DNA from: a virus
IMG/VR virus record: IMGVR_UViG_3300020122_000696
Coordinates: 1 to 35,980 of that record
Length of the DNA: 35,980 nucleotides
Reading direction: 5' to 3' (one strand)
Shown here: positions 6,974-25,135 of the stretch, one piece after another
Layout: each line of letters starts with the position of its first letter
Position numbering within the stretch: the first letter of the stretch is position 1
The notes under the pieces: model-generated
Told to the model about the DNA's origin: nothing
Databases searched by the model: none
What the model saw: only the letters and a program-made list of their open reading frames with translations
Made by a program: the position numbers and the translations under genes

Positions 6974-9112
6974 TTACTGGCAGAAGATCGAAACGATTTC
7001 GGTTGCGCTGGCGGTCGGCGTCAAGGAAAACGTGAACGTTGCACCAGTTGCGCTTATGGCCGTGGCGGCGAATGTGCCTATTGCGTTGGTTCCGCCCACT
7101 TGCACAGCTTGGCAAATGCTCGGCACGACGGGCAACGGAGTCGGGAACGTGTAGGTGATAGTCGGTGACGCTGCTAGGCCAGCCGTCCCATTGGTGATCG
7201 TTCCCGTGAAGCTATTCCCTCCGGTCAATGCAGACCAGGCGGCAGTAGGGGTATTTCCCCAACCAGCAGAGAGCACCGCGTTAGCCGCAGCAATCCCCAC
7301 GGAACCTTGCGAGTCGAGATTGAGGACGTTCGGAAAAGTGCTAGCCACGCCGCCCGTGAAAGTGTTCCCGCCGCGATTGATGAGAAGTGAGTTGGTACCG
7401 GTGATATTGATGGGAGCCTTGGTGCCCGCTCCAATCATGGCTACACCTTGTAGATCAACCGTGCAGGTCACGTTGCAGAAGATGCCCGTGCCATTCGTTC
7501 CGGTAAAGGCGTACTTGCCGCTGACAATTTTAAGTTTGGGGCCGTTGGTTGTAATAGCTTGATAGAAGAATTGATTGGTGCCTGTCGTAGTCGAAAATCG
7601 CGGATCGTAAAGTTCGGTGATGCTCGATGCTCCAACTCCAACGATACTGCTTAAAGCAGCAGTCGCAGTTTGCGTATTGAAGAAGCCGCATGAGAAGCAG
7701 ACAAAGCGACCAGTCACAAGAGCGTTTGAACTATTGGCATTTATGGAGTTCGAATTTTCCAAAGTTACGCGGTATCCGGTAGTCTGCGATGCCGCAGTTA
7801 CCTGAAGATGGATGTCTCCGCAGGCGCTTACGTTCAATTGCTGAAGCTGTACCCAGTGATAAGCAGCGACACAGATATGTTGGTTGCCAGATGCGAGGTC
7901 AGCTAGGTTAGTTAACGTCACATAGTCTATGCTGCCGACATCCACGCCAAGAACAACGCCTCCATTCGGTATGTTACTGCCAGCCGCGCCAGAGCCCCCT
8001 GAAATTTGCAGATTACTCCAGCGACCTTCAAGAGCTACTTGAAAACAATTTACGCTTCCGAATCCATGATTGCATGCACCTGTTTCTGGAAAGTCTGGCA
8101 CCAGCCAAAGGATAGTCGCGCCCGGGCCGCGACCTTCAACTTCATAACCGGCGGCATAGAACATATTTCCTAGTGAGCCACCGCCTCCTAGCGCCGGTAT
8201 CGCAGTGCAAGCCGGAGGCTGTGCATAGAGCGCCGAAGGGGGAGTCGTGAGCATGTATCCCGCGCCCGCAAGATACAGTTTTGGGCACTGCGGCGCCGTC
8301 GTAAGCGATCCAATGGCAGTCGAAAGGGCCGCGAACCCTGAGTCGTCTGGATGCCCAAAAATCAGACAACCGCTGCCGGCAGCCAACCCCGCCGCGTTAG
8401 CGCTGACGTTAACGTGGGCGCTATCGGTGAATGTTTGAATAGTTACCGTCGTCGCCGTCAGAGACCCGCTGAGAGGTTGGGCTGCGAACGGGTTGCAATT
8501 CCCGGCATAGCCGAAAGCGGTCTTGCCCACGTCGGTAGAAACAAATGTTCCCGCAGCGCAAGTGACAGCGGGGCTGCCGCCGGCCCACGAACAGCTATTG
8601 ATGACCTGCGTATCGGCAGGAGTGTTGAAGCATTGCCCAGTGTTAGCGACTGGACACGCCGGAGAAAGGTAGAAGGCCATAACAGGGGAAGCGCCAGAGC
8701 CTACGCCCGAACCCGAGGCGCTTCCGCTTTTCACCGCCGCAGTCGAAGCATTCAGATCGACCACCGCCGTGCCCGACGAAACTGAGGCGCCGCAGATCTG
8801 AAACAGCGACATGCCGGCGACGCCCACGGTAAACGTACCGTTTGCGGTGATGGTGGTTTGTGAGGTGGAAGAGCCGGCGGGCGTCACCGAGACATTCACC
8901 GGCGCCTGGCCAGCAACGGCGACTTGCGGCTGCAAGGTGCCTGTCCAGGTGCCCGACACTACGATACCGACGGTCGAGACCGAGCCGCCGGTTGAGATGG
9001 TGACGCACTGCGTCGAAGTGATGTTCCGGCCGGTCTGCTGCGCGAAAGCACCGGAAGCGAGAAGCAACCCCAGCCAGGCAAGCCAGGCGAGGCGGTTGCG
9101 GAGTTTGTTCAT
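6974..9112 (-). CDS. Tail spike, beta-helix type, with Sec signal peptide
   Basis: 712 aa. The N-terminus (NKLRNRLAWLAWLGLLLASGAFA, cleavage expected before QQTG) is a clear Sec signal peptide. Next comes a Ser/Thr/Gly-rich domain, then residues about 160-600 with repeating short strands and Asn turns (LTNLADLASGNQ, VTLENSNSINANSSN, VSGKYAFTGTNGT) typical of a pectate-lyase-like right-handed beta helix. The C-terminal domain (from about 610) is a small beta-sandwich cap ending SATEIVSIFCQ. About 20 cysteines are present, unusual for a cytoplasmically folded phage spike. Central codon use is more AT-rich than its neighbours, suggesting a swapped receptor-binding domain. Likely the host-surface recognition or depolymerase protein. 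Confidence 0.7.
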   Translation of the reverse strand: MNKLRNRLAWLAWLGLLLASGAFAQQTGRNITSTQCVTISTGGSVSTVGIVVSGTWTGTLQPQVAVAGQAPVNVSVTPAGSSTSQTTITANGTFTVGVAGMSLFQICGASVSSGTAVVDLNASTAAVKSGSASGSGVGSGASPVMAFYLSPACPVANTGQCFNTPADTQVINSCSWAGGSPAVTCAAGTFVSTDVGKTAFGYAGNCNPFAAQPLSGSLTATTVTIQTFTDSAHVNVSANAAGLAAGSGCLIFGHPDDSGFAALSTAIGSLTTAPQCPKLYLAGAGYMLTTPPSALYAQPPACTAIPALGGGGSLGNMFYAAGYEVEGRGPGATILWLVPDFPETGACNHGFGSVNCFQVALEGRWSNLQISGGSGAAGSNIPNGGVVLGVDVGSIDYVTLTNLADLASGNQHICVAAYHWVQLQQLNVSACGDIHLQVTAASQTTGYRVTLENSNSINANSSNALVTGRFVCFSCGFFNTQTATAALSSIVGVGASSITELYDPRFSTTTGTNQFFYQAITTNGPKLKIVSGKYAFTGTNGTGIFCNVTCTVDLQGVAMIGAGTKAPINITGTNSLLINRGGNTFTGGVASTFPNVLNLDSQGSVGIAAANAVLSAGWGNTPTAAWSALTGGNSFTGTITNGTAGLAASPTITYTFPTPLPVVPSICQAVQVGGTNAIGTFAATAISATGATFTFSLTPTASATEIVSIFCQ

Positions 9113-9134
9113 GAGGATCTCCTTAAAAACTTAC

Positions 9135-10229
9135 TTACTTCGTGAACAGCACCTGGCCCCAATAGAACGTGATGGCCTCTGCGGTCGCGGTGTTTTTGTT
9201 GTCGACCGTGAAGAAAGTGCCGATGAGTTGACTATTCGCCATCAGATTGGTCGAGACCGTCGCCACCTGTACGCCATTGAGAAAGAACACGGCCGAGGTG
9301 CCACCGGTACCGGGGATGATTTCGAACATGGTCGACGTTGCGGTCGCGGGCGCGATGCCGGTATCGACGACAGTCTGATTCGCGGATGAGGTTGCACAGA
9401 CTGCTTTCCAGGTCGTGTCGGTGGTCGAGGAAAAACGGAAGGCGCAATAGTTGAGGTTCGGGGTATCGGTGGCATTGTTCGCGGCGCCGGCGGAAAAATC
9501 GCCTGCGCGGCAGTCGGACAGGCCGACCCAGTAGCGCGCGGTCGACGTGACCTGCGTCATGATGCGCATCCCCCAGCGCGTGGTCGTGCCCCAGCTCATG
9601 GCCGCTTGCCCGAAGTTCGCGCCGCAGCCCGACTCGAGCCCAATCACGGTGTTGGCCGAGCCGGCCGCGGTCGCGCTCATCTGTCGGCCCTGCGTCTCGG
9701 TCGCCGTGGCGGCGAGGCCCGACTGCGTGCCGAAGCCGATGCAGCTGTTGTTCCCGACGGGTACGCAGGAGATGCCCGAGGCGTCGCCGTACTGGTACCA
9801 GAAGCGCCCGATCTGGCCTGGACCTGCGGCAGTGCCTGAGCTGGTCGGCGCGGCGGGTGCAACGAACGCGGTGTAGTTGGCGCCATCGGAATAAAGATCG
9901 ACGTTCTGGCCGGTCGCGAGGTTGAGTGTCGAGGCCGCCGTGCCGGTCGCGTTGATCGTGCAGCTCGCGCAGGTGATGGTCACAGTGCCGACGCCGATGT
10001 TTTTCGCCGAGAACACCGCGCCCGCGCCGAAGTTGAGAGTCGCGCCCGAAGGCAGAGACACGGCCACCGGGGAAGCATTCGAAAACGTGGTGACGCGCGT
10101 CGAGTCGGCGGCGACGATGGTATAGCTTGCGCCGGTGACTGCGTTCACGCCCGAGAGCATGCGCGCCGAGTTGACCTGCGCAGAGAGACTCGAGGCCAGG
10201 AGCAGGAAGAAAAGCGAAAGTCGTTTCAT
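9135..10229 (-). CDS. Tail fibre/adsorption protein with lectin-like domain and signal peptide
   Basis: 364 aa. Signal peptide MKRLSLFFLLLASSLSA with expected cleavage before QVNS. Residues about 35-120 follow a repeat seen in many tail-fibre proteins (SYTIVAADSTRV, SNASPVAVSLPSG, GTVTITC, LYSDGANYTAF). The C-terminal half (FRFSSTTDTTWKAVC ... VFFLNGVQVATVST ... ITFYWGQVLF) resembles a concanavalin A/LamG-like beta sandwich, usually a glycan-binding fold. Cysteines are frequent and mostly in the C-terminal half. It sits between two other signal-peptide-bearing tail genes in the same direction. Confidence 0.65.
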   Translation of the reverse strand: MKRLSLFFLLLASSLSAQVNSARMLSGVNAVTGASYTIVAADSTRVTTFSNASPVAVSLPSGATLNFGAGAVFSAKNIGVGTVTITCASCTINATGTAASTLNLATGQNVDLYSDGANYTAFVAPAAPTSSGTAAGPGQIGRFWYQYGDASGISCVPVGNNSCIGFGTQSGLAATATETQGRQMSATAAGSANTVIGLESGCGANFGQAAMSWGTTTRWGMRIMTQVTSTARYWVGLSDCRAGDFSAGAANNATDTPNLNYCAFRFSSTTDTTWKAVCATSSANQTVVDTGIAPATATSTMFEIIPGTGGTSAVFFLNGVQVATVSTNLMANSQLIGTFFTVDNKNTATAEAITFYWGQVLFTK

Positions 10230-10234
10230 AGGAA

Positions 10235-12118
10235 TTATTGCGACGTGAGGATCTCGATCGCCAGCCAGGGCAGTTGCGAGGATCCGAAGGGCGGCGCTGC
10301 GGTGCTGATGCCGCCGGCCGAATCCGTGTTGCCCTTGCCCGTAAAGGTCACCGCCTGGCCGTTGGTATAAGTCACCGGCGAAATCGACGAGGCGCTAGAA
10401 CCGGCCGCATTGCCGCTGGCGGTCTGCGTGAGTGCGCGCGAAGTGGCGAACTGATTCGGGCCGACATTGTCTTCGACCCAGAAGGTCGCCGTGCCGGAAG
10501 CGGCCGAGGTGAAGGACACGCCGTAAGACGCGCGCACGCGGCACGGGCAGCCCGACGAAGGCATGGTGACCGCCTTGGTGACCCATGTGACGTTCGAGGC
10601 GCCGATCGCCGTGCCCGAGTTGGTTGTGATCGAAGGCGAGAGCAGTGTCGGCGGCGCGCGCTGTTCTGGCGGGAATAGATCGATCGTATAGGCGCCCGTG
10701 CCGACGTTGGTCGTGAGCACGCGCCCGATCACCTGGCCGCCGCCGGGAAGCGTCGCGCCGGCATCGTGGCAATCGCCGTTCACGATGGTCGAGTTCTGCA
10801 CATAGTCGCCGGCCGTGGTCGCGCCGTCGAACTGGCATGTGATCAAGCCGATCTGCCCGATCACCGCGCTGCCGGTCGTGCCCGCGCCGGCAGTCGTGAT
10901 TCCGACGATTCCGCCGGTGTCGCCCGTGGTCGCCATGATCGCGGTCGACGGCGCGCCGGTGAGCTTGGTAAGTGTGTTGATCGTGGTGCCGGCGCCATTG
11001 TTCGCGATGGTGACGCCGATCGAATTCGCCGCTGAGCCTTCGATGTCGGGCGGGAAGAGCAGCACCTGATAAGTGCCGGCGCCGACGTTGGTTGTCATCA
11101 CCCGGCCGATCACCTGGCCTTTGAGCGGATAAACCGCCGAGCCGGTGTCGTGGCAATCGCCGCCGACCGTCGCCGAGATCTGCGCGTAGTCGCCGGCGCC
11201 GGTGGCGCCGTCGAAGACGCAGTTCGCCAGGCCGCCGGCTTGCACGACCGCGTTGCCCGTATTGCCTGCCCCTGACACTGTGATGCCGATGACGCCGCCG
11301 GTGTCGGTGGTTTGGGCGATGGTGGCCTGCGCGGTCGAGTTAATTAACTTAGTAAGTGTCGAGGCCGTGGTCCCGGTGGGATTTGCGTTCGCAATCACCA
11401 TGTAAGTGGCGGGCGAGTTCACCACCACGGCGCCGTTGATGGTTGGTGTTGAGAAGGTGCCGCCGGTCACCGTGGGCGACGTAAGCGTTTTGTTTGTGAG
11501 CGTGTCGGTCGTGGTCCTGCCGACGAGCGTGTCGGTGATGTTGGGCAGGTGCAGCGTCACGTTGCCGGTCGGCGGCGGCGCGTCGAGCGTGGTCTGGTTG
11601 CCGGGCGCTCCGAAAATGATCTGGTTGTCGGTGGGCAGAATGGTGATGGGCTGCGAGAACGTCTGCGGCTGCGACCAGGTGTTAGCGAGGTTCAGGATCC
11701 CGAAGGCATAGCCGGGGATATTGTCGACGCAGCGCAGCTGCACCCCCAGCGAGTTCTGGATGCAGAATTTATAGGACTGGTTCGCCAGCCAGATGCCGAC
11801 TTCGACGCCGCTCGCGCTGGCGGGCACGCCGGCTGCGTCGAGCACGATCGGATCGGTGTTTTGGATCGTGCCGGTCGAGTCGATGTAGGTGTTGCGCAGA
11901 TTGGTCGTGCCGGCGTCGTAAGTGAAGACCTTGCCGCCGGCCAGCGGCTTGCCGGCATTGTCGAGAAATTGCTGGTAGGGCGAGGGCGTGATCGAGACCA
12001 GCACCTGCGCCGAGAGCACACTAAAGTACCCGCACAGTAACAGGCCGAAAAGGATGCGAGTAACTAGCCGGAAGAGACATGGCCAGGCGCGCCAGAGCAA
12101 GCTAGATTGAATGAGCAT
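10235..12118 (-). CDS. Tail fibre with phage N-terminal domain, tandem repeats and signal peptide
   Basis: 627 aa from ATG 12118 (an in-frame ATG at 12178 is possible but adds a polar tail). A long N-terminal hydrophobic signal ends FSVLSA before QVLV. It is followed by the familiar fibre N-domain (YQQFLDNAGKPLAGGKVFTY, DAGTT, DPIVLDAAGV, VGIWLANQSYKF). Around 250-460 lie two copies of a roughly 105-residue unit, each with TLTKL, DTGG, FDGAT-AGDY, GDCHD, GQVIGRV-TTNV and LFPP. The C-terminal beta-rich part holds CPCRVRASYGV and TFWVEDNVG. The phage fibre N-domain behind an export signal is the striking point. Confidence 0.7.
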   Translation of the reverse strand: MLIQSSLLWRAWPCLFRLVTRILFGLLLCGYFSVLSAQVLVSITPSPYQQFLDNAGKPLAGGKVFTYDAGTTNLRNTYIDSTGTIQNTDPIVLDAAGVPASASGVEVGIWLANQSYKFCIQNSLGVQLRCVDNIPGYAFGILNLANTWSQPQTFSQPITILPTDNQIIFGAPGNQTTLDAPPPTGNVTLHLPNITDTLVGRTTTDTLTNKTLTSPTVTGGTFSTPTINGAVVVNSPATYMVIANANPTGTTASTLTKLINSTAQATIAQTTDTGGVIGITVSGAGNTGNAVVQAGGLANCVFDGATGAGDYAQISATVGGDCHDTGSAVYPLKGQVIGRVMTTNVGAGTYQVLLFPPDIEGSAANSIGVTIANNGAGTTINTLTKLTGAPSTAIMATTGDTGGIVGITTAGAGTTGSAVIGQIGLITCQFDGATTAGDYVQNSTIVNGDCHDAGATLPGGGQVIGRVLTTNVGTGAYTIDLFPPEQRAPPTLLSPSITTNSGTAIGASNVTWVTKAVTMPSSGCPCRVRASYGVSFTSAASGTATFWVEDNVGPNQFATSRALTQTASGNAAGSSASSISPVTYTNGQAVTFTGKGNTDSAGGISTAAPPFGSSQLPWLAIEILTSQ

Positions 12119-12332
12119 GAGGGATTCGATCGAATACGAGTTAGTTGAGTGGGAACCGCGCGAGGTTTGGAAGTGCACAGTGTGTGGCCGCTATCGCCAT
12201 CGCAAAGCTTTGTTCGGGATCCTGCCGGCGCAGTGCTGCGAGCAGCCGGCCATTCTCATCGATCGCTACAAGCAGCCCGTCGAGATCACGATCACTGAAC
12301 CGGTGACACCTTCGGCACCCGCCGCACAATAA
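12111..12332 (+). CDS. Small zinc-binding protein on the opposite strand, 73 aa
   Basis: MSMRDSIEYELVEWEPRE, then WKCTVCG and CCEQ as probable zinc ligands, then a Pro-rich tail. Codon use looks genuine. It lies head-to-head with the fibre gene (start codons overlap around 12111-12118), and its end overlaps the end of the 12292 gene by 41 nt, so it fills a gap in the minus-strand operon. No clear promoter or ribosome-binding site is seen. Function unknown. Confidence 0.55.
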   Translation: MSMRDSIEYELVEWEPREVWKCTVCGRYRHRKALFGILPAQCCEQPAILIDRYKQPVEITITEPVTPSAPAAQ

Positions 12333-14166
12333 TCGGAATTCTTTTAATGCCTGCGCGTTGCGCTGCGATCGCTCGCGCCCGGCCGTCGACTTCGATGATG
12401 TTGTTGTCGGCGTCGCGTGTCTCGAGCACGGGCTCAACCGGTTTGCCTTTCTTATAGGCCTCGGCCAACTTCTGCACGTAAGTCTCGGTCTCGGCCGCGG
12501 TCATGCCGCGGGTTTGCTCACGGGTGGCCGCCAGGCTTTCGGCGTCGACGCCCCAACGCGTCGCGAGATCCTTCGGCGTGATCGTGGTTTGGACTCCGCG
12601 GCTGGTCGTCTGGTCGAGCGACTGATTCAGCAGCGAGAACAGATCGTTTTCTTCGGGCTTTGCCGCCGCCGCGGGTTTCGGTGCGGGCTTCGGCGTTTCT
12701 TTGGCAGCTTCCGCGGCCGCCGGCGGTGGTTCGTTCGTGCCTGGTGCGGGCGCGTTCGGATCCGCCGAGCGCAAGCCGGCCCGCTGATAAGGTTCGAATT
12801 TTCCGCCGACGTATTTGCCGAGCGGCGTGCCGTTCGAGCGCAGCTCGCCCCAGGCCGTGCCCTTCGAGTCGGCGGCTTCAAATTTCTTGAAGTCGTCCGG
12901 TGTGACTTCTCCGGTGCGATAGCGTTGCCAGTTGTTGGTGACCGCTTCGAATTCCTGCGCCGCGGGATCGTACTTGTAGCCGCGGATCGCCGTCGACTTC
13001 ACCGGCGTAAAGCCCTCGGGAAGCTTCGGCGCGGCCGTGGTGCCCTGGTTGCGCAGCGAGACGCCGGGCTGCAATGGTCGGCCGCCGAGCGCTTCGCTGA
13101 GTTGTTGCTCGAGGACGGCGGGCGCCACCTTGGGAGTTGGCGCTTCGAGCGGCTGCGCCGTTGACATATCGAGCTTCACCGGCGCAGTCGGGCGTGGCGT
13201 GACAGGTGCCGGACCTGCAGCAACGGCCGGTTCGGCCACTTCGCCCGGCAGCATCAGGCCCTGGCGCGGCGGCATGATGCGTTCGATGGAAGGCCGCGCG
13301 GTGACGCCAGGTATCGGCTGCTGCGGCACGATCACTTCGGGCGAAATTTGTCCGGGCAAGGTGCGCGCCGGGCTCACCAGCGCCGGGTTGAGCTGCTCGG
13401 GCGCGGGTGTCGCCGGCAGTGGTGCGCCCGCATTGACGGGCGGTGCTTCCGGCAGTGGCGCGCCCGGATAGACCGGCTTTGGCAGACCGTAATCACGGCC
13501 AGGGATCTTGACGTTCACGGCCTCGGCTGCGTCCGCCGGCGTGAAGAGATTCACGATCGGCTTAACTGGTACGAGCTTTTGGTTGATCGCCGCCTCGGCG
13601 CTGCGAGCTGCGAGCCGGACTGGTGCGGTGCGAACCGTGGACGGGATGGCGTCGATCGCCGCGGTGCCGCCCTTCGCTGCACCATAGCCACCGGCGAGCG
13701 AAGCAATATCGCCAGCGAGATCCGCCTGGTCGGGCGTTGCTCCGAGTGCAGTCGCGCCAGCCTTGCCTGCAGCTCCGCCTGCAGCTCCGCCGGCGAGTGC
13801 GAGACCGGTCGCCAGCGGTGCCCCTGCAGCTGCGATCGGAAGTGCGGGCGCAGTGAGCGATCCGCCGCCGGTCATGATGCGATGCAGGCCCTTCGCGATA
13901 TTGCCCGACAGGATGTCTTTGACTCCGCCGCCGATCTCGCCGAACGAAGCCTTATCCCACTCAGCCAGGCCGCCGGCCAGGCCTGCGCCTTCGCCTGCGC
14001 CCGGCATACTTTTGCCGTGCTGCTTTTCGAATTCTTTTGTCTTTTCCCACCAGCTCTTTTCGTGCGGAGCTTCGCCGATCGGCGTCGCGGTCGACATATC
14101 GAGCGCGACCGGACCTGCGTCGATCGGCTTGGCGGTCGACATATCGAGCGTGACTTGGGCGGGCAT
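12292..14166 (-). CDS. Candidate ejection protein with ParB-like C-terminal domain
   Basis: 624 aa. The N-terminus has two copies of LDMSTAxPI (residues 7-15 and 22-30) and a third (LDMSTAQPL) near residue 333. Residues about 75-165 are Ala/Gly-rich and hydrophobic (AAGAPLATGLALAGGAAGGAAG), as in membrane-penetrating phage internal proteins. The middle is Pro-rich and disordered. The last 70 residues (YVQKLAEAYKKGKPVEPVLE, IIEVDGRARAIAAQRAG, IPIIVRRV) match the core of ParB/sulfiredoxin-like domains (I..l...G...P...V.DG..RA.AA...G...IPvIv). Its position after the head-completion and injection genes suggests a virion protein delivered into the cell. Confidence 0.6.
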   Translation of the reverse strand: MPAQVTLDMSTAKPIDAGPVALDMSTATPIGEAPHEKSWWEKTKEFEKQHGKSMPGAGEGAGLAGGLAEWDKASFGEIGGGVKDILSGNIAKGLHRIMTGGGSLTAPALPIAAAGAPLATGLALAGGAAGGAAGKAGATALGATPDQADLAGDIASLAGGYGAAKGGTAAIDAIPSTVRTAPVRLAARSAEAAINQKLVPVKPIVNLFTPADAAEAVNVKIPGRDYGLPKPVYPGAPLPEAPPVNAGAPLPATPAPEQLNPALVSPARTLPGQISPEVIVPQQPIPGVTARPSIERIMPPRQGLMLPGEVAEPAVAAGPAPVTPRPTAPVKLDMSTAQPLEAPTPKVAPAVLEQQLSEALGGRPLQPGVSLRNQGTTAAPKLPEGFTPVKSTAIRGYKYDPAAQEFEAVTNNWQRYRTGEVTPDDFKKFEAADSKGTAWGELRSNGTPLGKYVGGKFEPYQRAGLRSADPNAPAPGTNEPPPAAAEAAKETPKPAPKPAAAAKPEENDLFSLLNQSLDQTTSRGVQTTITPKDLATRWGVDAESLAATREQTRGMTAAETETYVQKLAEAYKKGKPVEPVLETRDADNNIIEVDGRARAIAAQRAGIKRIPIIVRRVPKVSPVQ

Positions 14167-15690
14167 CTATTCTGCGAGTCCGAGATCCTCGCCTTTGGCG
14201 TTGGTGTAATGCAGTTTCTTGTCGGATCCCATCGCGGTGTGCGTGGCGCCAGTGGGTGCGGCCGGCTTCGTGGGCTGCCCGCTTTTCATCTCGTCCATCT
14301 CGACCGGCTGGAAGTTCGCGCCGTAGGTCTGGTTGATGGTCTTGAGCGAGTTGTTGTATTTCAGCTTCGAGCCGTCGGCCTGAATCTTCTGGATCTCGGC
14401 CATGTCGTCGAGCACGCTGCTCGGAATCGATGCGCCGGTGAGTTGCTTGCCGACGTGGCCCATCATGCGCTGCCACAGCGAGCCGCCGCCGGCATACTGC
14501 TCGATCTCGGCCTGGTTGATGCGGTGCACGCCCTGCGAGGTCGTGATCTGCAGCGTGCCTTCCTCGGGGATGACCTGGTAGGCGACGACGTTGCCCTTGG
14601 TCGCTGCTTTCATCATGGCGTTGAGCCGCTGCGTCACCGATTGCGCCTGCGCGTAATCCTCGCCGGCTTTGGCCGCCTGAGCGCTGGCTGGTGCGACCAG
14701 GTGCGGCGGAACTTGCGCGAGTGCCGCATTCGATCCGCGCGCCGTCTTTGCTTCCTGCGCAGCTCGAGCGGCGCCTTCTGCGGCCGCGACTTCGACCTTC
14801 CCGCGCTGAATGTCGGGGTTGGTCGCGACCGCGACGTCTTTTTCGACCGCGCCGACCTGTGTGCCGGCTTCTTTGATCAGCTCCTTCGCGCCATCGATGT
14901 CGCCGTTCATGATCGCGTTGTGAATGCCGGCCTTGGTCCGCTGATTCAGCGAGCCATACTTATTGGCGGGCGCGATCGCGTCGACCTGGTCGAGCAGTGA
15001 CTGCGGGTTCGCCTTGTAGGCGTTCATCACGCCGGCTTTGTTGCGCGCGAGAAAAGCGTCGGCGTTGTCCTTCGCCGCCTGCGCGTTGTTCTTATCGGTT
15101 TCCGCCTGCTCTTTGGCGCGCGAGAATTGCACCGACTCGAGCTGGTAACTCTTCTTAAAATTGTCGAGGCCTGCGCGCAGGCTTTTCGGATCCGTGCCGG
15201 CTTGCTGCAGGAGTTGCTGCGCGGCTTGCGCGTGCTGCGGATCCAGATCGCCAGAAGTAACCGAATCTTTCAGCGCCGATTGAATGTGCGGCACGAGCTG
15301 CTCGTCGGGCACGGCCTCGGCAGCGTCGAAGCGCCCGAGCATGCGATCGGTTTTCTTTTGCTGCAGCGTGAAGTCCGACTCGCTGAGCGCGTTTTTCTCC
15401 TGCTGGCGCGCCATCAGCGTCTGCGCGACCGTGTTCGCGGCGGCGCCGGATCCGCCGGCCGAGAGCACGCCCTTCACGAGCGAATCGGTGTCTTTGCCGT
15501 CCCAGCTTTTCCAGGCGTCGGTGACGGCCTGGTTGTCTTTGAGCTTCTGCTGGTTCTCCTGGATCTGCTGCTGCTGGATCTGCTGCTCGCCGAGCAGGGA
15601 CTTCATGCGCATTGCGTTCGAATACTGCGTCAGCGCGTCAGGAGATTGCGCCGGGTGAACGTCGAGAGCGGGAAGAGGGATAGAAGCCAT
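14167..15690 (-). CDS. Candidate virion ejection protein, helical, 507 aa
   Basis: Begins MASIPLPALDVHPAQSPDAL and quickly becomes long Gln/Ala-rich helices (QQIQQQQIQENQQKLKDNQA, then further Ala/Lys/Glu-rich coils to about residue 400), with a compact end that holds TTSQGVHRINQAEIEQY and RMMGHVGKQL. Composition, size and place between the 15700 and 12292 genes resemble P22 gp16/gp20-type and T7-like internal proteins ejected with DNA. No enzymatic motif is seen. The stop abuts the next start (14166/14167). Confidence 0.55.
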   Translation of the reverse strand: MASIPLPALDVHPAQSPDALTQYSNAMRMKSLLGEQQIQQQQIQENQQKLKDNQAVTDAWKSWDGKDTDSLVKGVLSAGGSGAAANTVAQTLMARQQEKNALSESDFTLQQKKTDRMLGRFDAAEAVPDEQLVPHIQSALKDSVTSGDLDPQHAQAAQQLLQQAGTDPKSLRAGLDNFKKSYQLESVQFSRAKEQAETDKNNAQAAKDNADAFLARNKAGVMNAYKANPQSLLDQVDAIAPANKYGSLNQRTKAGIHNAIMNGDIDGAKELIKEAGTQVGAVEKDVAVATNPDIQRGKVEVAAAEGAARAAQEAKTARGSNAALAQVPPHLVAPASAQAAKAGEDYAQAQSVTQRLNAMMKAATKGNVVAYQVIPEEGTLQITTSQGVHRINQAEIEQYAGGGSLWQRMMGHVGKQLTGASIPSSVLDDMAEIQKIQADGSKLKYNNSLKTINQTYGANFQPVEMDEMKSGQPTKPAAPTGATHTAMGSDKKLHYTNAKGEDLGLAE

Positions 15691-15699
15691 AGGTTTTTA

Positions 15700-16887
15700 T
15701 CAGCTGGCCGCGGGGATCGGCCCGATGCCGCCCTTGTTGAGTAGCTGCGACATCATCAGCAGCTGGCCGAGGTTGCCCGTGAGACCGCTCAGCCCGCTGC
15801 CGTAAGCGTTGGCGCCGCCCACGTAGCCGCTCGCGGTGGCCGCGGCCGCGTTGTTCAGGTTCTGGCCGATGGCGTTCGAGCCGCCGAGCAGGATGTTGCC
15901 GACATTCTGGCCGAAGCCGAGGCCAGCCGAATTCAGTTGGCCGGCCTGCGTCTGGCCCATGCCGGCGAGCGAGGCGAGGCGGTTCCACTGGTTGGCCTGA
16001 TTTTGCTGGAAAATGTTGTAGTTCTGCTGGTACTCGCCCAGCGAGCGCCCGTAAACGTTGGCGTACTCGTTTGAGGCCAGGCCTTGCGCGTAATCCTGCT
16101 CGGCTTTCGCCGTGTTGCCGGAAAGCAGGCCGCCGCGCGCCGCGGCGGAATTCTCGAGGGCGCCGAGGCCTTGCGACATGCGGAACTTGTAGCCGGGATC
16201 GTTCTGTTCGGTGACGTCGGTGGGCGCAACGAAGGGCGTCGTCCAGGGTGCGAACGGTTGCAAATTGCCGCCCAATGGCCCGCCAGGCCCACCAGGAGCG
16301 CCAGAGGCTGCACCAGGGGCGCCAGGGGATCGAGGGGCGCCCGTGCTGGCGCCCGGCGCCGGCATGCCAAAAGTGCCGCCCATCACGGGCGTGCCGTTGG
16401 ACTGACCTGGGAATGCGGTTTCCCCATCCGTGCCGCGCACGGGCTGCATCGGGCTGCCGGTGGAAGCGCCAGGATGCGGACTGAGGCCCATCATCGAGAA
16501 CTGGCTGCCGTTTGTGCCATTCGGGCCAACCATGCCGGGATTCGGCGCGCTGGGCACAGTCGAGGTGCCGCTGGCAGGGAAGGGACTTCCCGGCGTGATG
16601 CCACTCGAGGGCGACGGCAAGCCGAGCAGCTGCCCGAGCGCGAGCTCGGCGGATCCGCCGGTCTGCAGCCAGGGCGCCGCGTTGGTCTGCGATTGCTGCC
16701 ACTGCTGCATCTGAAACTGCAGCGCTTGTTGCTCGGCTTCGAATTGGAGTTCGGCCGCGCGGTTGGCTGCGTTGGCTTGCGTAGAAGCGGCATTGCCGGC
16801 CGCGTTGGCCGAGAGCGCCGCGCCGCCGAGCGCGCCGCCCGCACTGAGGGCGCCGAGGCCGAGAGCTAATCCGGTGGCAATGGGCAT
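15700..16887 (-). CDS. Candidate DNA-injection/internal virion protein, 395 aa
   Basis: The N-terminus is hydrophobic and Ala/Gly-rich (ATGLALGLGALSAGGALGGA), then helical Gln-rich (EAEQQALQFQMQQWQQSQ), then a long Gly/Pro/Ser linker (about 100-215), a conserved-looking block (DPGYKFRMSQGLGALENSAA ... GEYQQNYNIFQQNQ) and a Gly/Asn/Ala-rich end. The DPGY.FRM.QG motif is common in phage virion proteins annotated as injection or internal proteins. It precedes two other candidate ejection proteins, as P22 gp7 precedes gp20 and gp16. Confidence 0.6.
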   Translation of the reverse strand: MPIATGLALGLGALSAGGALGGAALSANAAGNAASTQANAANRAAELQFEAEQQALQFQMQQWQQSQTNAAPWLQTGGSAELALGQLLGLPSPSSGITPGSPFPASGTSTVPSAPNPGMVGPNGTNGSQFSMMGLSPHPGASTGSPMQPVRGTDGETAFPGQSNGTPVMGGTFGMPAPGASTGAPRSPGAPGAASGAPGGPGGPLGGNLQPFAPWTTPFVAPTDVTEQNDPGYKFRMSQGLGALENSAAARGGLLSGNTAKAEQDYAQGLASNEYANVYGRSLGEYQQNYNIFQQNQANQWNRLASLAGMGQTQAGQLNSAGLGFGQNVGNILLGGSNAIGQNLNNAAAATASGYVGGANAYGSGLSGLTGNLGQLLMMSQLLNKGGIGPIPAAS

Positions 16888-17643: not shown

Positions 17644-19476
17644 TTAAGCTCTTTCCGCCAGCTCTTTCGGCAGCCGCTTGCTGCCCGAGCCCGTCGGGCC
17701 TTTCAGATAGCTGTCAATAAAGCGCCAGGGAATCGGATCGGTCACCACGCCCTGCATCACCCAGTCGCGCGCTTTGCCGAGCCGGCGCACCACTACGCGG
17801 CGCGTATAGTCGCCCGCCTGGCCGCAGTCGATCCAATTCTCGGCCGAGAAGGTGTGCCCGCTATCCTTCGACCAGTTCATCATGATCTGCGGACCACGGG
17901 CGAACATGCCGCTCGGTGTCACCTTCTCGATCCCGTGTCCGCTGCCGACGTCGGTGATGAAAAACGTCCAGATCGAGCGACCGGTCGACGAGACCATCTG
18001 CGCCGCGTTTGGATAGTTGCCGTTAAAGGTCACCGGCGCCGCCGCCAACACGCCGATCGTCGAGACGATCACCTGCCACGACGTGCCGGCAAGGGGATCG
18101 TTGAAAAACAATAGGCCAGGCGTCGCCGTCGCCGGTGCCAGCACGGTCTGCAGGATCCCGACGTCGTTCACACTCAGTTGCCAAACGACGTTATTCGCAT
18201 CAGCCAGGTAAAACACCGTCGGGATCCCGGTACCTTGCAGAGGCGGCACTGGGCCGAGGCCGGTCTCGAGATCGATCTCCCACTGCGAAACGAAGAGCCA
18301 CTCGAGTTCCTGCGAAACATGCGGCGCGCGGCGCAGCCGGCGGATCGGGTTGCCGTTGTCGGTCACGAACTGATAGGTCGAGCCGACCAGCTGCGGAATC
18401 GCCATCTGGTAAACGTTGCCGGTCGTGGGATCGCCCACCAGGTGCTGGCCAAAATTAAAGGTGTGATACATCGCGCGGTGTTGGGTGTACTTGCCGAGCT
18501 TCGTGTCCCAATAGCCGCGCTCGCCCCACTGGCTGGTGGCCGCGTCGTACACCCAAGTTTTCCCGGCCGTGGGAAATGAGAAGACCACGAACTCGTGTCC
18601 CTGGTCTTGGTAGGAATAGGCGACGCAGTCGGCGATCGTCGAGTAACCCTGCATGGCGAGCTCGATCGCGTGATTCGAGACGCGCACCGGCTGGAAGCCG
18701 TTCGCGCGCCGCACCACGCCGTTGCCGCGCTCATCCGAGCCCAGCCAGAAAAGCGAGTTGTCGGCCTTCGCGATAGCGTTCGCCGCCGCCAGGCCGCTTT
18801 CGATGTACGAGCCCTCGATCACGTCGTAAGGAAAGGGAAAATTGCCCGAGTCGTAATAGGGCTGAATCGCGTTTGGGCCAAAGACCCAGAGGTTGCGATG
18901 GTCGACAAAGATCGCGAGAATCTTGTCGGTAAACACCGAGACCACGGTCGCGCTCGTGCCTGGCCAGGTCGTCGCGTCAAGCGGCGCCGAGGCCTGGATC
19001 TTGTTCGAGTTCGCATTCAACGCGATAAAAAAGCCGTCGGAGTAGCGCACCTGCGAGACCGGCGCGCCGATCGTCGGCGTGACTTCAGTGAGCGTGTTCG
19101 CGTTCAGATCGAAGACATAGGCGCGCTGTTGAGAAGCGATCAGCAGCTGCGAACCGCCGCCCGCCATCGAGACGGGCAAGCCATCGGAGGGCAGGGGAGT
19201 GCCGCCCGAGCGATTGGTTTGCCCGCCGCCGGCGAGGAGCTCCCAAAGAATCGTTCCCTGTACCACGAACGTGCGGCCGAGCACCGTGATCGCGCCGCGC
19301 ATCGGAGCGGCGCCCAGCTGGTACGCCAGGTTCGTGCCTGGCGTGCAATACATGGCGAACGCGCTGCGCCCCATCTGACTCTCGATCGACTCGAGGTAGA
19401 GGTTCATCAGCGTCTGACAATCGGCGTTCACCGATTGCGAGCGGTAGGAAGGTCCGCAAAATCCGAAGCGTGCCAT
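17644..19476 (-). CDS. P22 gp10-like packaged-DNA stabilisation/tail hub protein
   Basis: 610 aa. Opens RFGFCGPSYRSQSVNADCQT followed by LMNLYLESI, the start pattern of gp10-type head-closure proteins, and continues as beta-rich repeats (propeller-like; VFGPNAIQPYYDSGN, GSDERGNGVVRRANG, VYDAATSQWGERGYW). It would bind the gp4-like ring under the portal and seal packaged DNA. It is longer than P22 gp10 (472 aa), with an added C-terminal region (from about 400: VFYLADANNVVWQL, IEKVTPSGMFARGPQ). Gene order right after gp4-like supports the call. Confidence 0.7.
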   Translation of the reverse strand: MARFGFCGPSYRSQSVNADCQTLMNLYLESIESQMGRSAFAMYCTPGTNLAYQLGAAPMRGAITVLGRTFVVQGTILWELLAGGGQTNRSGGTPLPSDGLPVSMAGGGSQLLIASQQRAYVFDLNANTLTEVTPTIGAPVSQVRYSDGFFIALNANSNKIQASAPLDATTWPGTSATVVSVFTDKILAIFVDHRNLWVFGPNAIQPYYDSGNFPFPYDVIEGSYIESGLAAANAIAKADNSLFWLGSDERGNGVVRRANGFQPVRVSNHAIELAMQGYSTIADCVAYSYQDQGHEFVVFSFPTAGKTWVYDAATSQWGERGYWDTKLGKYTQHRAMYHTFNFGQHLVGDPTTGNVYQMAIPQLVGSTYQFVTDNGNPIRRLRRAPHVSQELEWLFVSQWEIDLETGLGPVPPLQGTGIPTVFYLADANNVVWQLSVNDVGILQTVLAPATATPGLLFFNDPLAGTSWQVIVSTIGVLAAAPVTFNGNYPNAAQMVSSTGRSIWTFFITDVGSGHGIEKVTPSGMFARGPQIMMNWSKDSGHTFSAENWIDCGQAGDYTRRVVVRRLGKARDWVMQGVVTDPIPWRFIDSYLKGPTGSGSKRLPKELAERA

Positions 19477-20511: not shown

Positions 20512-20514
20512 GGG

Positions 20515-20757: not shown

Positions 20758-20811
20758 GTTGCGAATCTCCTGGTGTGATTTGTAGAGCACGCCCTGGCGG
20801 GCGCCTGGTTC

Positions 20812-21237
20812 CTAGAGGTCTTCCGACTCCATATCGAACAACGGGTTTTCTTTGCGGATCGGTGGTTTATCGAGCCAGCCCTTTTTGATGAGGCGCTCGA
20901 GATCCTTCGCGTTCGTTACCAGCTTCACGCGGTTGCTGCGCGCCCACTTGGTCTCGGCTTCCTGGTAGGCCGTCATCGCGTTCTGCATCTGTTCCTGCGT
21001 GATCGCGCCGATGAAAAAGCGGCCGCCTTCGGGCTTGGGCTTCGCGCCCCATTCCGGGTGATAGAGCATCCGCGGGAACTCCTCATGCTTGTACTGCACG
21101 GGCACGTATCCCACAGCTTTGTTATTGACGATGGTGCCGTCGTATCGGTGCGGGCCTTTGCAGACGCGAGCGGCGCGCGGGATCGGCACGGGATTCTCTT
21201 CGAGTTGAATCTGATCGAGCAGCTGGTAGTTGCTCAT
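20812..21237 (-). CDS. Hypothetical protein, 141 aa
   Basis: Starts MSNYQLLDQIQLEENP behind AAGGAA; longer in-frame extension shadows the gene upstream and the terminator. Contains VQYKHEEFPRMLYHPEWG (about 55-72), then a helical region with EQMQNAMTAYQEAETKWARS and a LERLIKKGWLDKPP end. This type of small protein commonly sits between coat and gp4 genes in P22-like and related phages, role unknown. Confidence 0.6.
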   Translation of the reverse strand: MSNYQLLDQIQLEENPVPIPRAARVCKGPHRYDGTIVNNKAVGYVPVQYKHEEFPRMLYHPEWGAKPKPEGGRFFIGAITQEQMQNAMTAYQEAETKWARSNRVKLVTNAKDLERLIKKGWLDKPPIRKENPLFDMESEDL

Positions 21238-21254
21238 GAAAATTCCTTTCGGCG

Positions 21255-21297
21255 AAAAATGCCGGGCGGTCTCGAGACGAGTCGAAAGACCGCCCGG
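21255..21297 (-). terminator. Intrinsic terminator after the head-operon protein gene
   Basis: An 11-bp perfect stem (21262-21272 with 21287-21297; ccgggcggtct/agaccgcccgg) with a 14-nt loop. On the minus strand it is followed by C-A-TTTTT (21259-21255). It lies between the stop at 21314 and the ribosome-binding site at about 21245, so head-gene mRNA levels can be separated from later genes. Confidence 0.75.
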
Positions 21298-21313
21298 TTC
21301 TTGGGTGAGGGGT

Positions 21314-22330
21314 CTACTGCAGCGAACAGTTCGATCCCGGCTGAATTGTGAGCGTGCCGGCACCGTTGGCCGCGGCCTGCAGCTGCACCGTGCCGCCGTT
21401 TGCACCGTTGACGATGTCGATGCTTAGGACGTCGGTGAAGTTTGTCGCCGTGGTGATGGTTCCGGTATTGGCCACCGGGGAAGAGAAGGCCACCGCCGAA
21501 GCGTTGGCCGCGGTCGCTGCTGTGATCGGACTGTTCAGCCCTACCGCAACCGCCGTCGGTGATGCCGGGCCGGTGAACTGGTATTTCGGTCCGGTCGTGT
21601 TCGCCGACCCCTGCCAGGTGATGCGGCAGATGGCGTGATAGTTGCGATTAGGCAGAACCAGGAAGGCGATATTTCCGGTGTTTGCCGTCGCGCCGGCCAG
21701 GTTCGAGAACGTGGTCGTCGCGTTGGTGTAGGCCGAGGTTATCGATACTTCCTGCGAAACGTTCTGGCTTGGGAACGAGTAAGTCGTCGCCGGAACCCAG
21801 CCCGTAAGCACTGCGCCCGCGGGTGTCGAGAACGGCGCGCAGACGAACTGCGTGCCGGTGATGACATTGATCCAGGGCTGCAACAGCGTCGAGCCTGCCA
21901 CACAGCTGCCTTGGATCGGAGGATCCGACAGATACAAACCGCCCGAGCCGGCAAAGCCGCCGAACTGCGGCGTGCCGACCTGAACATAGACCACCGCGTT
22001 CGCCTTATGGAACGCGGACTTCGTGCCTTGCTGTGCGCGCAGCACGTTGAAAATGGTCGTCTGTCCGGGCACCGTGGTGAGCACGCCCATCAGCTCGGTA
22101 TCAACATAGAGCCACGTAATGGGCGAGCCGTTGAAAGCGGCCTGCACACCGGTGGCGGAAGCAAGACTTGCGGTTGTGGTGAATGCGCCCTGCGCGCCGC
22201 CGGCCAGGGAAGCCGGGCCGAGTGGCATATCCGACGACAGGGTGGTTTGCGTGAGGTTGGTCTGGCCGAAAGCCAGGGCACCCATCAGCACGAGAACGAC
22301 AAGCGAAAGAGTCTTGAGTGTGTTTTTCAT
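21314..22330 (-). CDS. Exported structural-type protein with Sec signal, 338 aa
   Basis: Signal peptide MKNTLKTLSLVVLVLMGALAFG, mature end QTNLTQTTL. The body is Ser/Thr/Gly/Ala-rich and beta-like (ITWLYVDTELMGVLTTVPG, FNVLRAQQGTKSAFHK, YHAICRITWQG), with a VLRGxxGT-like motif seen in phage head-decoration and fibre proteins. It immediately follows the coat gene, so a capsid decoration or head-fibre role is plausible, yet it carries an export signal. Strongly expressed location, ended by a terminator. Confidence 0.6.
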   Translation of the reverse strand: MKNTLKTLSLVVLVLMGALAFGQTNLTQTTLSSDMPLGPASLAGGAQGAFTTTASLASATGVQAAFNGSPITWLYVDTELMGVLTTVPGQTTIFNVLRAQQGTKSAFHKANAVVYVQVGTPQFGGFAGSGGLYLSDPPIQGSCVAGSTLLQPWINVITGTQFVCAPFSTPAGAVLTGWVPATTYSFPSQNVSQEVSITSAYTNATTTFSNLAGATANTGNIAFLVLPNRNYHAICRITWQGSANTTGPKYQFTGPASPTAVAVGLNSPITAATAANASAVAFSSPVANTGTITTATNFTDVLSIDIVNGANGGTVQLQAAANGAGTLTIQPGSNCSLQ

Positions 22331-22373
22331 CGTTGGTTTGTCCTTGTCTTAGGCTCGTTAGGCTCGTCGCTCC

Positions 22374-23594
22374 TCAGCTCGCGATCCGGCAGGCGAGCTC
22401 GGGATAGAGTGTGGCAACGCCGTAGAGCACGTCACCGCGGAAGGGGAATCGATCCTGGTTGATGTCGTAAGCGCGCACCAGTCGGAACGACGCTTTCATC
22501 TCTTTCGAGGAAGCGCGCTCGCCGATGTCGACGCCGCCGGGAACTACCAGGTCGGCCATACCGAGAGTGAAGGCATCCTCGTGGAAGGCCAGCCCTCGAG
22601 GCGAGGGACCAGTTCCGGAAGCACCTTGCACCGTGATGGCTGCGTTGTTGGCGGGCGATGCCGATGCGTTCATGAACGGCCCGGCTGTGATCAGGCCGTT
22701 GCCGCTCGGGCCGGCGATCGGAATCGTCGCGGCGCCGCCGCCGCTCGAGACTACGTTCGCGGTGACCACCCATTGCGCAAGCGAAGCGTTCGCCTGGCGG
22801 TTCTGTGCGTTCACCGAGAAGACACCCGCGAAGCTGATCACATCGCCTTGGTTCAGCACCTGCGTCGAGTTCGTCCAGCCCGACGTGATGATCGACGAGC
22901 CGGTTTGGTTCGCGCCGTTCACGACTGGCGTCGAGCCCGCATAGCTGCCGACGGTTTGCACGCGCGTGTTCTGGTCGACGTACCAGTCGAAGCCCAGAAA
23001 GTCGCGCGCCATCATGCCTTTTTCGTTCTGGTCCGAGATCTGCCGCTGCGGATTGAACAGGCCTTTGACGGTGTCGACGAGTACCGCGTTCATGCCGGTG
23101 GAAAGCACGACGCAGCGATCATCGAACGGCACAGACATATCGCTCAGCCGTTGGCCGGCCTGCAGATAGGTCAGAGTGAGGTTCGGGATCGTGCCCGGCG
23201 TGCCGATTTCGTTGAACACGTTCAGATACTGCCCGAGCACGTCGAAGTCGATGAAGTTCGCGAGCGTCGACAGGCCTGGACGGATGAAGCGCTTCGAGAA
23301 ATCGTCGATGTTCAGCGCCAGGTCGACCGAAGAGAAAGCGAGGCCGAGATGTCGCTGCGTGTTCAGCACGAGCGGCACACTGGTCTCGGTGGCGTCTTCG
23401 ATCTGCAGCGCCTGGCCGACGGCCGTTAGATAGCGGGGTGGGCGCCGGATGTTAAGCACCGTCCCAATTTTCGCACCCTCGACGCCGAAGCGGTCATCGT
23501 ATTGCCGATTGACACGCTTGACAGCGGCGAGGTTATTCACGAGGACCATCAGTGCCTCGTTCGTCACCATGCCGATTGTTAGGTAGGTATTCAT
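22374..23594 (-). CDS. Major capsid (P22-type coat) protein
   Basis: 406 aa, close to P22 gp5 (430). Starts MNTYLTIGMVTNEALMVL, with an N-terminal arm, then GTVLNIRRPPRY, an ALQIEDATETSVPLVLN stretch (like the P22-coat ...T..S..l.l... strand) and QRHLGLAFSSVDLALN, patterns shared with the P22_CoatProtein family. A middle insertion (about 225-330; variable Gly/Ser/Ala) could be the surface (I-like) domain. It would form the T=7 shell with the scaffold encoded just upstream. Confidence 0.8.
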   Translation of the reverse strand: MNTYLTIGMVTNEALMVLVNNLAAVKRVNRQYDDRFGVEGAKIGTVLNIRRPPRYLTAVGQALQIEDATETSVPLVLNTQRHLGLAFSSVDLALNIDDFSKRFIRPGLSTLANFIDFDVLGQYLNVFNEIGTPGTIPNLTLTYLQAGQRLSDMSVPFDDRCVVLSTGMNAVLVDTVKGLFNPQRQISDQNEKGMMARDFLGFDWYVDQNTRVQTVGSYAGSTPVVNGANQTGSSIITSGWTNSTQVLNQGDVISFAGVFSVNAQNRQANASLAQWVVTANVVSSGGGAATIPIAGPSGNGLITAGPFMNASASPANNAAITVQGASGTGPSPRGLAFHEDAFTLGMADLVVPGGVDIGERASSKEMKASFRLVRAYDINQDRFPFRGDVLYGVATLYPELACRIAS

Positions 23595-23613
23595 AGGCTA
23601 GGGGCCGGTTCCT

Positions 23614-24585
23614 TCAGTGCCGGCGAGAGCTTAGCTGCGCTTGTCTGCGCGCGATCCACCCGTCTGTGTCTTTCACGAGTGTGGGATCGGCGAGATCCGG
23701 CGCGGCCTTGGTTGTGCCACGTACCGGCGTTGTCGGCGCCGGCGTGCGGCTAACAGGTTTCGCGCGAGCCGTCTCAGAAGGGCTTTTTTCAGGAAATAAC
23801 CGGGCCTCGAGCCTTCCCACCATGCGCTGCACACCTGCGGGTGACAGATTGGAAAACTTCTCCATGTCTTCCGGGTGATTCGCCAGGTGGTACATCAGCT
23901 CGCCCGAGTTCTCGGAATCGACCAGGGCGATCTGAAAGGCCTGGTTCGCCTGTGGGCTCGAGAACGTGAACACGGGCATGCCGTTGATCGCGTCATCGAA
24001 ATCTTCGTGCGCGTCGCGGGCATCCTCGAGCCGCTCGAGATGAGCGTTGTAACTTTGCTTGGCGCTCTCTTCGGCTTCCCGAGCCGTTTCCTTCGCGTCG
24101 AGCTGTCGCTGCTCGTCGCGAACGATCCAACGGTTGTGTGCCGCGTTCCACTGATCCCAATCCTTGAAGTCTTTCAGTTGCGGTTCGGGATCCGCGGAGG
24201 TAGCAGCTTTGGCGGGCTCGGGCTTTTCCGTGCGTTCGGGCTCGCCGCGGCGGCGCGTGGCCTTGAGCTCTTCCTCGGTTTCCCGAAGGCGAGCTGTCAG
24301 CCGATCGATGCGCTTGCGGGCGCCCGGTGGCAGGTCTTTGTCTCCTGGTTCGTCCTTCTCTTCGCTCGCAGTCTTGCCCGTTTCTGAGGCGGGCGCGGTC
24401 TTGGTCGCGGCCTTTTTGTCGGCCGCTTCCGCAGATGTTTCTTTTCCCTTGCTCTCTTCCTCGGCCTTCGCCTTCGCGGGATCAAACTTCTCGCGCCAAT
24501 TAGGCCCGGTCGCATGATCGAGTTCCGCTTGGGTTTCGGTGGTCGAAGCGAGGGTGATGTCAGGCTGCTGTGTCGGTGTCGGCAT
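23614..24585 (-). CDS. Scaffolding protein
   Basis: 323 aa, charged, Lys/Glu/Ala-rich and almost wholly helical or disordered (KAKAEEESKGKETSAEAADK, RIDRLTARLRETEEELKATR). Residues about 175-255 hold a more ordered region (FDDAINGMPVFTF, SGELMYHLANHPEDMEKFSNL) and the C-terminus is basic (ARRQAQLSSRRH), as expected for coat contact. Size matches P22 gp8 (303 aa). Position between portal-side and coat genes supports the assignment. It drives prohead assembly and leaves before packaging. Confidence 0.75.
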   Translation of the reverse strand: MPTPTQQPDITLASTTETQAELDHATGPNWREKFDPAKAKAEEESKGKETSAEAADKKAATKTAPASETGKTASEEKDEPGDKDLPPGARKRIDRLTARLRETEEELKATRRRGEPERTEKPEPAKAATSADPEPQLKDFKDWDQWNAAHNRWIVRDEQRQLDAKETAREAEESAKQSYNAHLERLEDARDAHEDFDDAINGMPVFTFSSPQANQAFQIALVDSENSGELMYHLANHPEDMEKFSNLSPAGVQRMVGRLEARLFPEKSPSETARAKPVSRTPAPTTPVRGTTKAAPDLADPTLVKDTDGWIARRQAQLSSRRH

Positions 24586-24655
24586 GGAATTTGCTCTCCA
24601 TTGGGATCAGGCGCGGTGTACAAGGCCCGCCGCTAGGCCGTGGTGCGAAAACTGG

Positions 24656-25135
24656 TTAGGCGCTGCCGCTGCCCGTGGTCTGGATCGTGATCGAGGTCGG
24701 GCTGTTCACGGTGACGACGTAATCGCGGTTTCCGGTCGTGGCGATTGAAGTCGTACCCGTGCCGAGGCTCACGCCTGTGCCGGCGACGAGTGTCAATGTG
24801 CCGGCGCCCTGGTGCACGATGCGCAGGAAGTACTGAAAGCCGTTCTGCGGCTGAAAGCCGAGCGCGGCCGTTAGGTCGGCATACATCTGCGCCGCGGTGC
24901 GCGTGGTTTGGTTGCCCGGGTTCGCGCCGGTCGAGATCAGCAACACGTCGAGCGCGCCGGTGATGGCGCCCTGCGGAAGCGTCGAGGCCGCTGTCAGCGC
25001 AAGCGACGTCGCCTGGCACTGCGAAGAAACGATGTCGCTGATCGCCGACTGGTCATAAGCGCCGACGTGTGCGAAGGTCCCGAACAGCGGGCAAGCGATC
25101 GCGGCGAAAAAGCAGAAAAGCATGAACAGATGCAT
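24656..25135 (-). CDS. Exported small structural-type protein with Sec signal
   Basis: 159 aa behind AAAGGAA. Signal peptide MHLFMLFCFFAAIACPLFGTFA. The mature part contains a pattern typical of tail-fibre or head-fibre repeats (FQYFLRIVHQGAGTLTLVAG, GVSLGTGTTSI, SPTSITIQTTGSG). It lies between portal and scaffold, where a head-assembly protein is expected, but carries an export signal. Function inferred only. Confidence 0.55.
   Translation of the reverse strand: MHLFMLFCFFAAIACPLFGTFAHVGAYDQSAISDIVSSQCQATSLALTAASTLPQGAITGALDVLLISTGANPGNQTTRTAAQMYADLTAALGFQPQNGFQYFLRIVHQGAGTLTLVAGTGVSLGTGTTSIATTGNRDYVVTVNSPTSITIQTTGSGSA

Follow-up and report, generated by a model that had tools for sequence, protein, structure and literature searches.

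Predicted Sec signals on adhesin-type and other surface proteins of a P22-like phage point to their export

Does a tailed phage export part of its adsorption apparatus? The question is raised by a contig of 35,980 bases with 62% guanine plus cytosine (GC) (IMG/VR virus record IMGVR_UViG_3300020122_000696; this whole stretch is called the window below), in which an initial annotation had noted Sec signal peptides on five virion-type proteins: a spike, two fibres, a protein encoded next to the coat gene (post-coat protein) and a portal-adjacent protein. Judged by profile matches to its coat (PF11651, P22_CoatProtein, 7e-27), portal (PF16510, P22_portal, 2e-150) and tail hub (phrog_578, "head closure Hc3", 7e-90), all P22-type, the window is that of a P22-like podovirus. 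Assembly of tailed phages is generally taken to be a wholly cytoplasmic process. Export of the adsorption proteins, which the annotation had raised as a possibility, is well supported here by a conserved signal type, a virion-binding domain in one fibre and cysteine (Cys) pairs in two protein families; the exported proteins may then join the virion in the cell envelope.

We identified all five open reading frames (ORFs) on the minus strand, with N-termini as described. In four, a basic n-region and a hydrophobic core lead to a cleavage site that ends in A or G and precedes Gln; these four are predicted to carry Sec/signal peptidase I (SPI) signals. The fifth, the 24656-25135 protein, is a weak member: its N-terminus is signal-like, with no Lys or Arg before the h-region and a possible lipobox (AIAC). 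A sixth signal, on the 32503-33651 protein, had been missed; it lies beyond the range covered by that annotation (6974-25135). The mature ends were said to be mostly Gln, as holds for four of the five; the 24656-25135 protein has His (TFA/HVGA, the slash marking the predicted cleavage site). The h-regions of the five have 12-residue mean hydropathies of 2.2-3.0, and no further membrane segment was identified in the mature chains (no 19-residue window above a mean hydropathy of 1.41). A Pfam scan of the five gave nothing above cut-off. Shine-Dalgarno sequences were identified at the signal start in four of the six genes; those of fibres 9135 and 10235 lack a clear motif. None precedes internal starts near the mature ends of signal-bearing genes. 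Mis-annotated start codons are ruled out by these positions.

Signals were called with a purpose-written rule-based predictor (not SignalP) that left the start codon free, and the sixth in the window was judged by eye. In the P22 genes tested, no structural protein was flagged (only the holin and spanins), and in a 45-gene segment of E. coli K-12 one lipoprotein and three membrane proteins were flagged and ModA was missed. Thus, the predictor is conservative, yet mixes N-terminal anchors with signals. The same rule, with the same freedom of start, was applied to 422 homologues of core genes, which encode terminase, portal, scaffold and coat, the gp4-like adaptor, the hub, ejection proteins and other core products; 3 were positive. 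We compared about 90 related loci, collected by a coat scan and a profile scan and numbered with the prefix L. Within the window's clade 24/261 genes were positive, versus 0/558 in the sister clade, which in a quick coat tree is the one holding Pseudomonadota prophages (Fisher 6e-13, a value that, like the other p-values given here, overstates the contrast because related sequences are not independent). The annotation's statement that ordinary relatives have no such signals is borne out by P22, by the virion proteins of crAss001 and by 77 signal-less head-binding domains.

The clearest link to the virion is in the fibre at 10235-12118. The profile of its mature N-terminal domain matches the head-binding domains of tailspikes in the PDB (E 3e-12 to 4e-11), and an AlphaFold model (predicted local distance difference test score, pLDDT, 72.8; core >90) matches the P22, Sf6, Pam1 and Pan3 tailspikes with a Foldseek probability of 1.00. 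The domain is 37-46% identical to that of signal-less virion-type fibres. Because the signal sits directly on a tail-docking domain, and the phage has a P22-type hub, we infer that the fibre is still built as a part of the virion.

Disulfides form in the periplasm and normally not in the cytoplasm, and the distribution of Cys is therefore of interest. In the model of the fibre, the strands that bear C82 (E79-84) and C93 (E90-97) face each other in a register that fits a cross-strand pair, with the midpoint at the turn at 87-88. This pair is present in 7/9 signal-bearing homologues (the window, L002/L015, L012, L013, L196, L203 and L204) versus 0/77 signal-less ones (Fisher 7e-9). The last three came from a reciprocal search, blind to signals, in which the Cys-pair hairpin was used as a DNA pattern across the virus collection. 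It returned nine stretches: two out of reading frame, four at known loci (two of them halves of L002) and three new fibres, all three with a signal followed by Gln. At each of the three new loci, other spike or fibre genes also carry signals, most of them with 5-36 Cys. An unrelated Cys-pair insert is present in the post-coat family in 9/9 signal-bearing and 0/7 signal-less rows of the alignment (A5), and Cys content is higher in the signal-bearing members of this family (p = 1e-4). Clade-wide, mature signal-bearing proteins have a median of 1.6% Cys versus 0.5%. In the window, the mature counts are even in five of the six proteins (20, 8, 8, 4 and 12). The co-occurrence of Cys with signals in two unrelated families is independent, if indirect, support for export.

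As a separate observation, the fibre cassettes of L196, L203 and L204 each hold at least two signal-bearing adhesin-type genes, up to 1142 residues long and with up to 36 Cys.

Comparison of homologues, proposed in the annotation as a check on conservation, indicates that the type of signal is kept and its sequence is not, and that the extension is absent from signal-less orthologues. The fibre N-terminal domain has relatives in cultured phages and 80 further contigs, and it follows a signal in the window and at ten further loci (L002/L015, L009, L012, L013, L049, L155, L186, L196, L203, L204). In the nearest relative of the window (L002, 39,990 bases; coat 95% identical), the head-binding domain is 85% identical and the signal sequence differs. 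L002 is probably a complete, circularly permuted genome, as the fibre gene spans the ends of that contig. Signal-bearing homologues of the lectin-like fibre were identified in L014, L196, L203 and L204, and spike-type genes with signals in L049 (29 Cys), L196 (25) and L204 (28). In the post-coat family, signals are present in the window, L002-L005, L021-L023, L025, L026 and L054; in L006, L008, L011-L013, L024, L027-L030, L034, L040, L045 and L049 the orthologue at the same gene position begins where the mature chain does. The portal-adjacent gene is signal-like in the window, L002 and L003, and instead begins MPRGxxN in L008, L010, L012 and L013. As both states coexist among the post-coat and portal-adjacent orthologues, the signal is an added module, acquired or lost on more than one occasion. 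In signal-less copies of the fibre domain the start Met aligns with the mature Gln of signal-bearing copies. Downstream starts in homologues, which had been named as grounds for rejecting the signals, thus do occur, as a different lineage state. The signal predicted in L112 was discarded as a false positive, the start of this gene being at MTTLTPTPKQQFLD, and L112 was counted as signal-less.

Signal-bearing genes at other loci were also noted. L016 has four adjacent tail-type ones; in one, the mature chain begins ADTALSALSSVSSVNGTDL, much like the N-terminus of a phage structural protein that is signal-less in DSL-LC05 (L017 6481-7098). The spike of L049 (6449-8644) lies between the portal and scaffold genes, the place of the window's 24656 protein. 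A signal-bearing post-coat gene in L100 (11245-12159), a prophage-like contig of a Candidatus Sabulitectum (Fermentibacterota) metagenome-assembled genome (MAG), has no obvious sequence kinship with the window's family.

How might exported proteins reach the particle? The P22 tailspike is the last part to be added, and in vitro it can be joined to heads that are already complete. We consider it probable that the peripheral proteins leave the cytoplasm, lose their signals and are oxidised in the periplasm, and then bind finished heads at lysis. The inner particle (coat, portal, scaffold, connector, hub and ejection proteins) would be made in the cytoplasm. The outer, late-added proteins (the tailspike or fibre with the head-binding domain, the second fibre and the spike; the surface proteins of the post-coat and portal-adjacent genes are probable further members) would pass through Sec, and SPI would trim the signal to leave, in most cases, an N-terminal Gln. 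The chains, Cys-rich and beta-structured, would then form disulfides and trimerise in the oxidising environment of the periplasm. Lysis would open the inner membrane, so that finished heads meet the periplasmic pool and the head-binding domains dock on the tail hub. The signals are confined to proteins expected on the exterior of the particle. The broader proposition, on which we are evenly divided, is that a clade of tailed phages builds its virion in two compartments, with cytoplasmic heads and periplasmic disulfide-bonded adhesins and surface proteins joined only at lysis. The analysis shows where the genes lie, that the type of signal is conserved and clade-restricted, that one fibre has a head-binding domain and that Cys co-occurs with signals, and export is well supported on these grounds; actual translocation and cleavage, the formation of disulfides and trimers, and docking when the cell lyses are inferred.

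Several points weigh against this proposal. A virion-binding domain was demonstrated in one of the five proteins (fibre 10235). The P22 tailspike needs no export, and the advantage of export is thus a guess; nor does the proposal explain how exported trimers escape loss or binding to the surface of their own cell. The signal-bearing fibres L155 and L186 have no Cys pair, so that in this sample the pair implies the signal and not the reverse, and the 24656 protein lacks a basic n-region and has one Cys in its mature chain. As a rule-based tool the predictor is crude: it missed the known signal of ModA and that of the 32503 protein. Shuffled first 45 residues alone score 4-20% positive, because these N-termini are hydrophobic; the case therefore rests on the homology and Cys evidence and not on the predictor.

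Of the other explanations, the one that fares best, although we find it unlikely, is that the exported proteins are displayed on or released from the infected or lysogenic cell (for phage exclusion, biofilm binding or as a free depolymerase) and are not parts of the virion. The signals do look real, and a tyrosine recombinase is encoded, so lysogeny is possible. The 32503-33651 protein has no family match and no virion-like homology, and its L002 homologue, 30% identical, also has a signal; this protein could act in such a way, and is possibly a secreted non-virion factor. However, this explanation does not account for a head-binding domain kept at such identity to virion-type fibres. Within the late operon, the signal-bearing genes also stand in for virion genes, and for two of them, post-coat and portal-adjacent, signal-less orthologues lie at the same position. 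Both this location among late structural genes and the kept domain argue against coating of the lysogen surface, the annotation's other suggestion, as the main role; we regard that role as neither supported nor excluded.

We give a smaller chance to a tether, in which an uncleaved hydrophobic N-terminus holds the spikes at the inner membrane and heads dock before lysis. The 24656 protein, with its missing basic n-region and possible lipobox, and the long post-coat signal of L002 would fit. However, cleavage-type c-regions are kept across diverged sequences, with Gln next in 31 of 39 proteins, an N-terminal anchor leaves no free end of the head-binding domain, and a disulfide needs exposure to the periplasm. 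Lower still we place the view that recombination with host genes for secreted proteins left the signals behind as dispensable remnants, and that the functional protein comes from a downstream start or a cytoplasmic fraction. Signals that differ even between relatives as near as the window and L002 are what repeated capture would give, and GTG or ATG codons lie near some mature ends; against this, no internal start there is preceded by a Shine-Dalgarno sequence, the signal type is kept over large divergence and Cys pairs co-occur with signals. That high-GC hydrophobic N-termini resemble signals by chance, as the scoring of shuffled N-termini might suggest, has hardly any likelihood given the negative sister clade, the 3 positives in 422 core genes and the signal-bearing fibres found by the Cys-pair search.

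Secretion followed by oxidation and docking at lysis, the reading we prefer, can be set beside known systems. P22-like tailspikes (P22 gp9, Sf6 gp14, Pam1, Pan3) have the same head-binding domain in sequence and fold and the same gene place after the ejection proteins, in genomes with P22-type portal, coat and hub. P22 gp9 and signal-less relatives begin with the domain, whereas here a predicted cleavable signal comes first and many copies have the cross-strand Cys pair. Sec signals on virion proteins are already known from filamentous phages, in which proteins such as M13 g3p are preproteins that interact with SecY (PMC8310372); those are anchored in the inner membrane and extruded, while here no second membrane segment was identified and the phage is a tailed double-stranded DNA phage. 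In Porphyromonas gingivalis phages, five genes of unknown function with Q-rule signals are proposed cell-surface modifiers (PMC10367356). They too are phage genes fitted to host Sec signals, but here a virion-binding domain follows the signal. In Rhodoferax phage P26218, SignalP found exactly one signal gene (PMC4657236). This gene (24) and gene 35 of Xanthomonas phage PBR31 are single signal-bearing genes near the tailspike in cultured phages, and the tailspikes themselves have no signal, unlike those of the window. We rejected crAss001 as a precedent: lysis or membrane-type proteins alone score, and no tail, head-fibre or coat protein does. In word-based searching of the open-licence literature, no reports of Sec signals on tailed-phage adhesins or head-binding-domain tailspikes, or of a link to Cys pairs, were found. 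What is new here would be P22-type adhesins with an export route.

Among signal-bearing proteins of these phages, Gln is at +1 in 31/39 hand-placed sites, which were partly chosen by eye. Secreted proteins of Acidobacteriota also often have A/Q. The Q-rule (an SPI site followed by Gln) has been reported as specific to Bacteroidetes (PMC5837995, PMC10653852). The high frequency of Gln is a likeness to that secretome; the GC content of the genome here is a difference. This coat family also occurs in genome contigs (Paraburkholderia, Noviherbaspirillum, a Fermentibacterota MAG and others); these are mostly outside the window's clade, and no host was assigned.

Adhesins that leave the cytoplasm, are oxidised and join the particle at lysis would amount to a second assembly route beside the cytoplasmic one. 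This would account for the unusually Cys-rich spikes of environmental phages, would make cytoplasmic expression the wrong production route for these proteins and would allow further cases to be sought by a sequence rule, namely a signal and a Cys pair around the head-binding domain. The relation between phage adhesins and host signal-peptide preferences would be a testable link, useful for host prediction.

Table 1. Positions of predicted signals, mature proteins and signal-less control genes in the window.
Feature	Position	Strand	Remark
Spike signal peptide, predicted Sec/SPI	9041..9112	-	MNKLRNRLAWLAWLGLLLASGAFA/QQTG (AFA/QQTG, after residue 24); AAGGAG 6 nucleotides upstream of ATG
Mature spike	6974..9040	-	688 residues, 20 Cys; no further membrane segment
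Lectin-like fibre signal peptide, predicted Sec/SPI	10179..10229	-	MKRLSLFFLLLASSLSA/QVNS (LSA/QVNS, after residue 17)
Mature lectin-like fibre	9135..10178	-	347 residues, 8 Cys; N-terminal part matches phrog_8780 (minor tail protein)
Head-binding-domain fibre signal peptide, predicted Sec/SPI	12008..12118	-	LSA/QVLV, after residue 37 (from ATG 12118; ORF open to GTG 12178)
P22-tailspike-type head-binding domain	11711..12007	-	Mature N-terminus of fibre 10235-12118; C82/C93 across beta-hairpin
Remainder of head-binding-domain fibre	10235..11710	-	
Post-coat protein signal peptide, predicted Sec/SPI	22265..22330	-	MKNTLKTLSLVVLVLMGALAFG/QTNL (AFG/QTNL, after residue 22)
Mature post-coat protein	21314..22264	-	316 residues, 4 Cys; N-terminal domain common to signal-less orthologues, then Cys-pair insert
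Signal-like N-terminus without Lys or Arg	25070..25135	-	MHLFMLFCFFAAIACPLFGTFA/HVGA (TFA/HVGA, after residue 22)
Mature portal-scaffold-interval protein	24656..25069	-	137 residues, 1 Cys
Sixth predicted signal peptide	33592..33651	-	MRSSMLFPLVLLCLAPFVRS/QDG; AAGGAG 9 nucleotides upstream of ATG
Mature 32503-33651 protein	32503..33591	-	362 residues, 12 Cys (13 in whole chain)
Major coat protein (P22_CoatProtein)	22374..23594	-	No signal; internal control
Portal (P22_portal)	25148..27394	-	No signal; internal control
Head-closure/tail-hub protein (phrog Hc3, P22 gp10-like)	17644..19476	-	No signal; expected docking site of fibre
Three ejection-type proteins	12292..16887	-	No signal, zero Cys; internal control

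A DNA-level search of the window against cultured phages gave no match, and a tblastn search in cultured phages gave none for the spike, the full post-coat protein, the portal-adjacent protein or one signal protein of L016. The AlphaFold model of the post-coat protein (pLDDT 59.6) had no Foldseek match at <=0.001 and was not used.

Other genes of the window encode a GroES-like protein, a GNAT protein and the tyrosine recombinase, which is short. The GroES (Cpn10) gene is at 27649-28182 (minus strand), with counterparts in L002, L003 and L005, and GroES is also annotated in the cultured phages DSL-LC05, PBR31 and crAss001. Between the GroES and terminase genes, at 28433-28699 (minus strand), a short protein is encoded that has a single hydrophobic segment and, in its 48-residue tail, four Cys; it is predicted to be exported or membrane-anchored. 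In the early region, a 125-residue ORF (2441-2818, minus strand) has a predicted signal, MRMPPRAAVVLFSLLISFCWS, and adjoins a CGNR zinc-finger ORF (2802-3137). A tRNA-Gly with an unusual ACC anticodon call was identified at 1452-1524 (minus strand), and may be a remnant.

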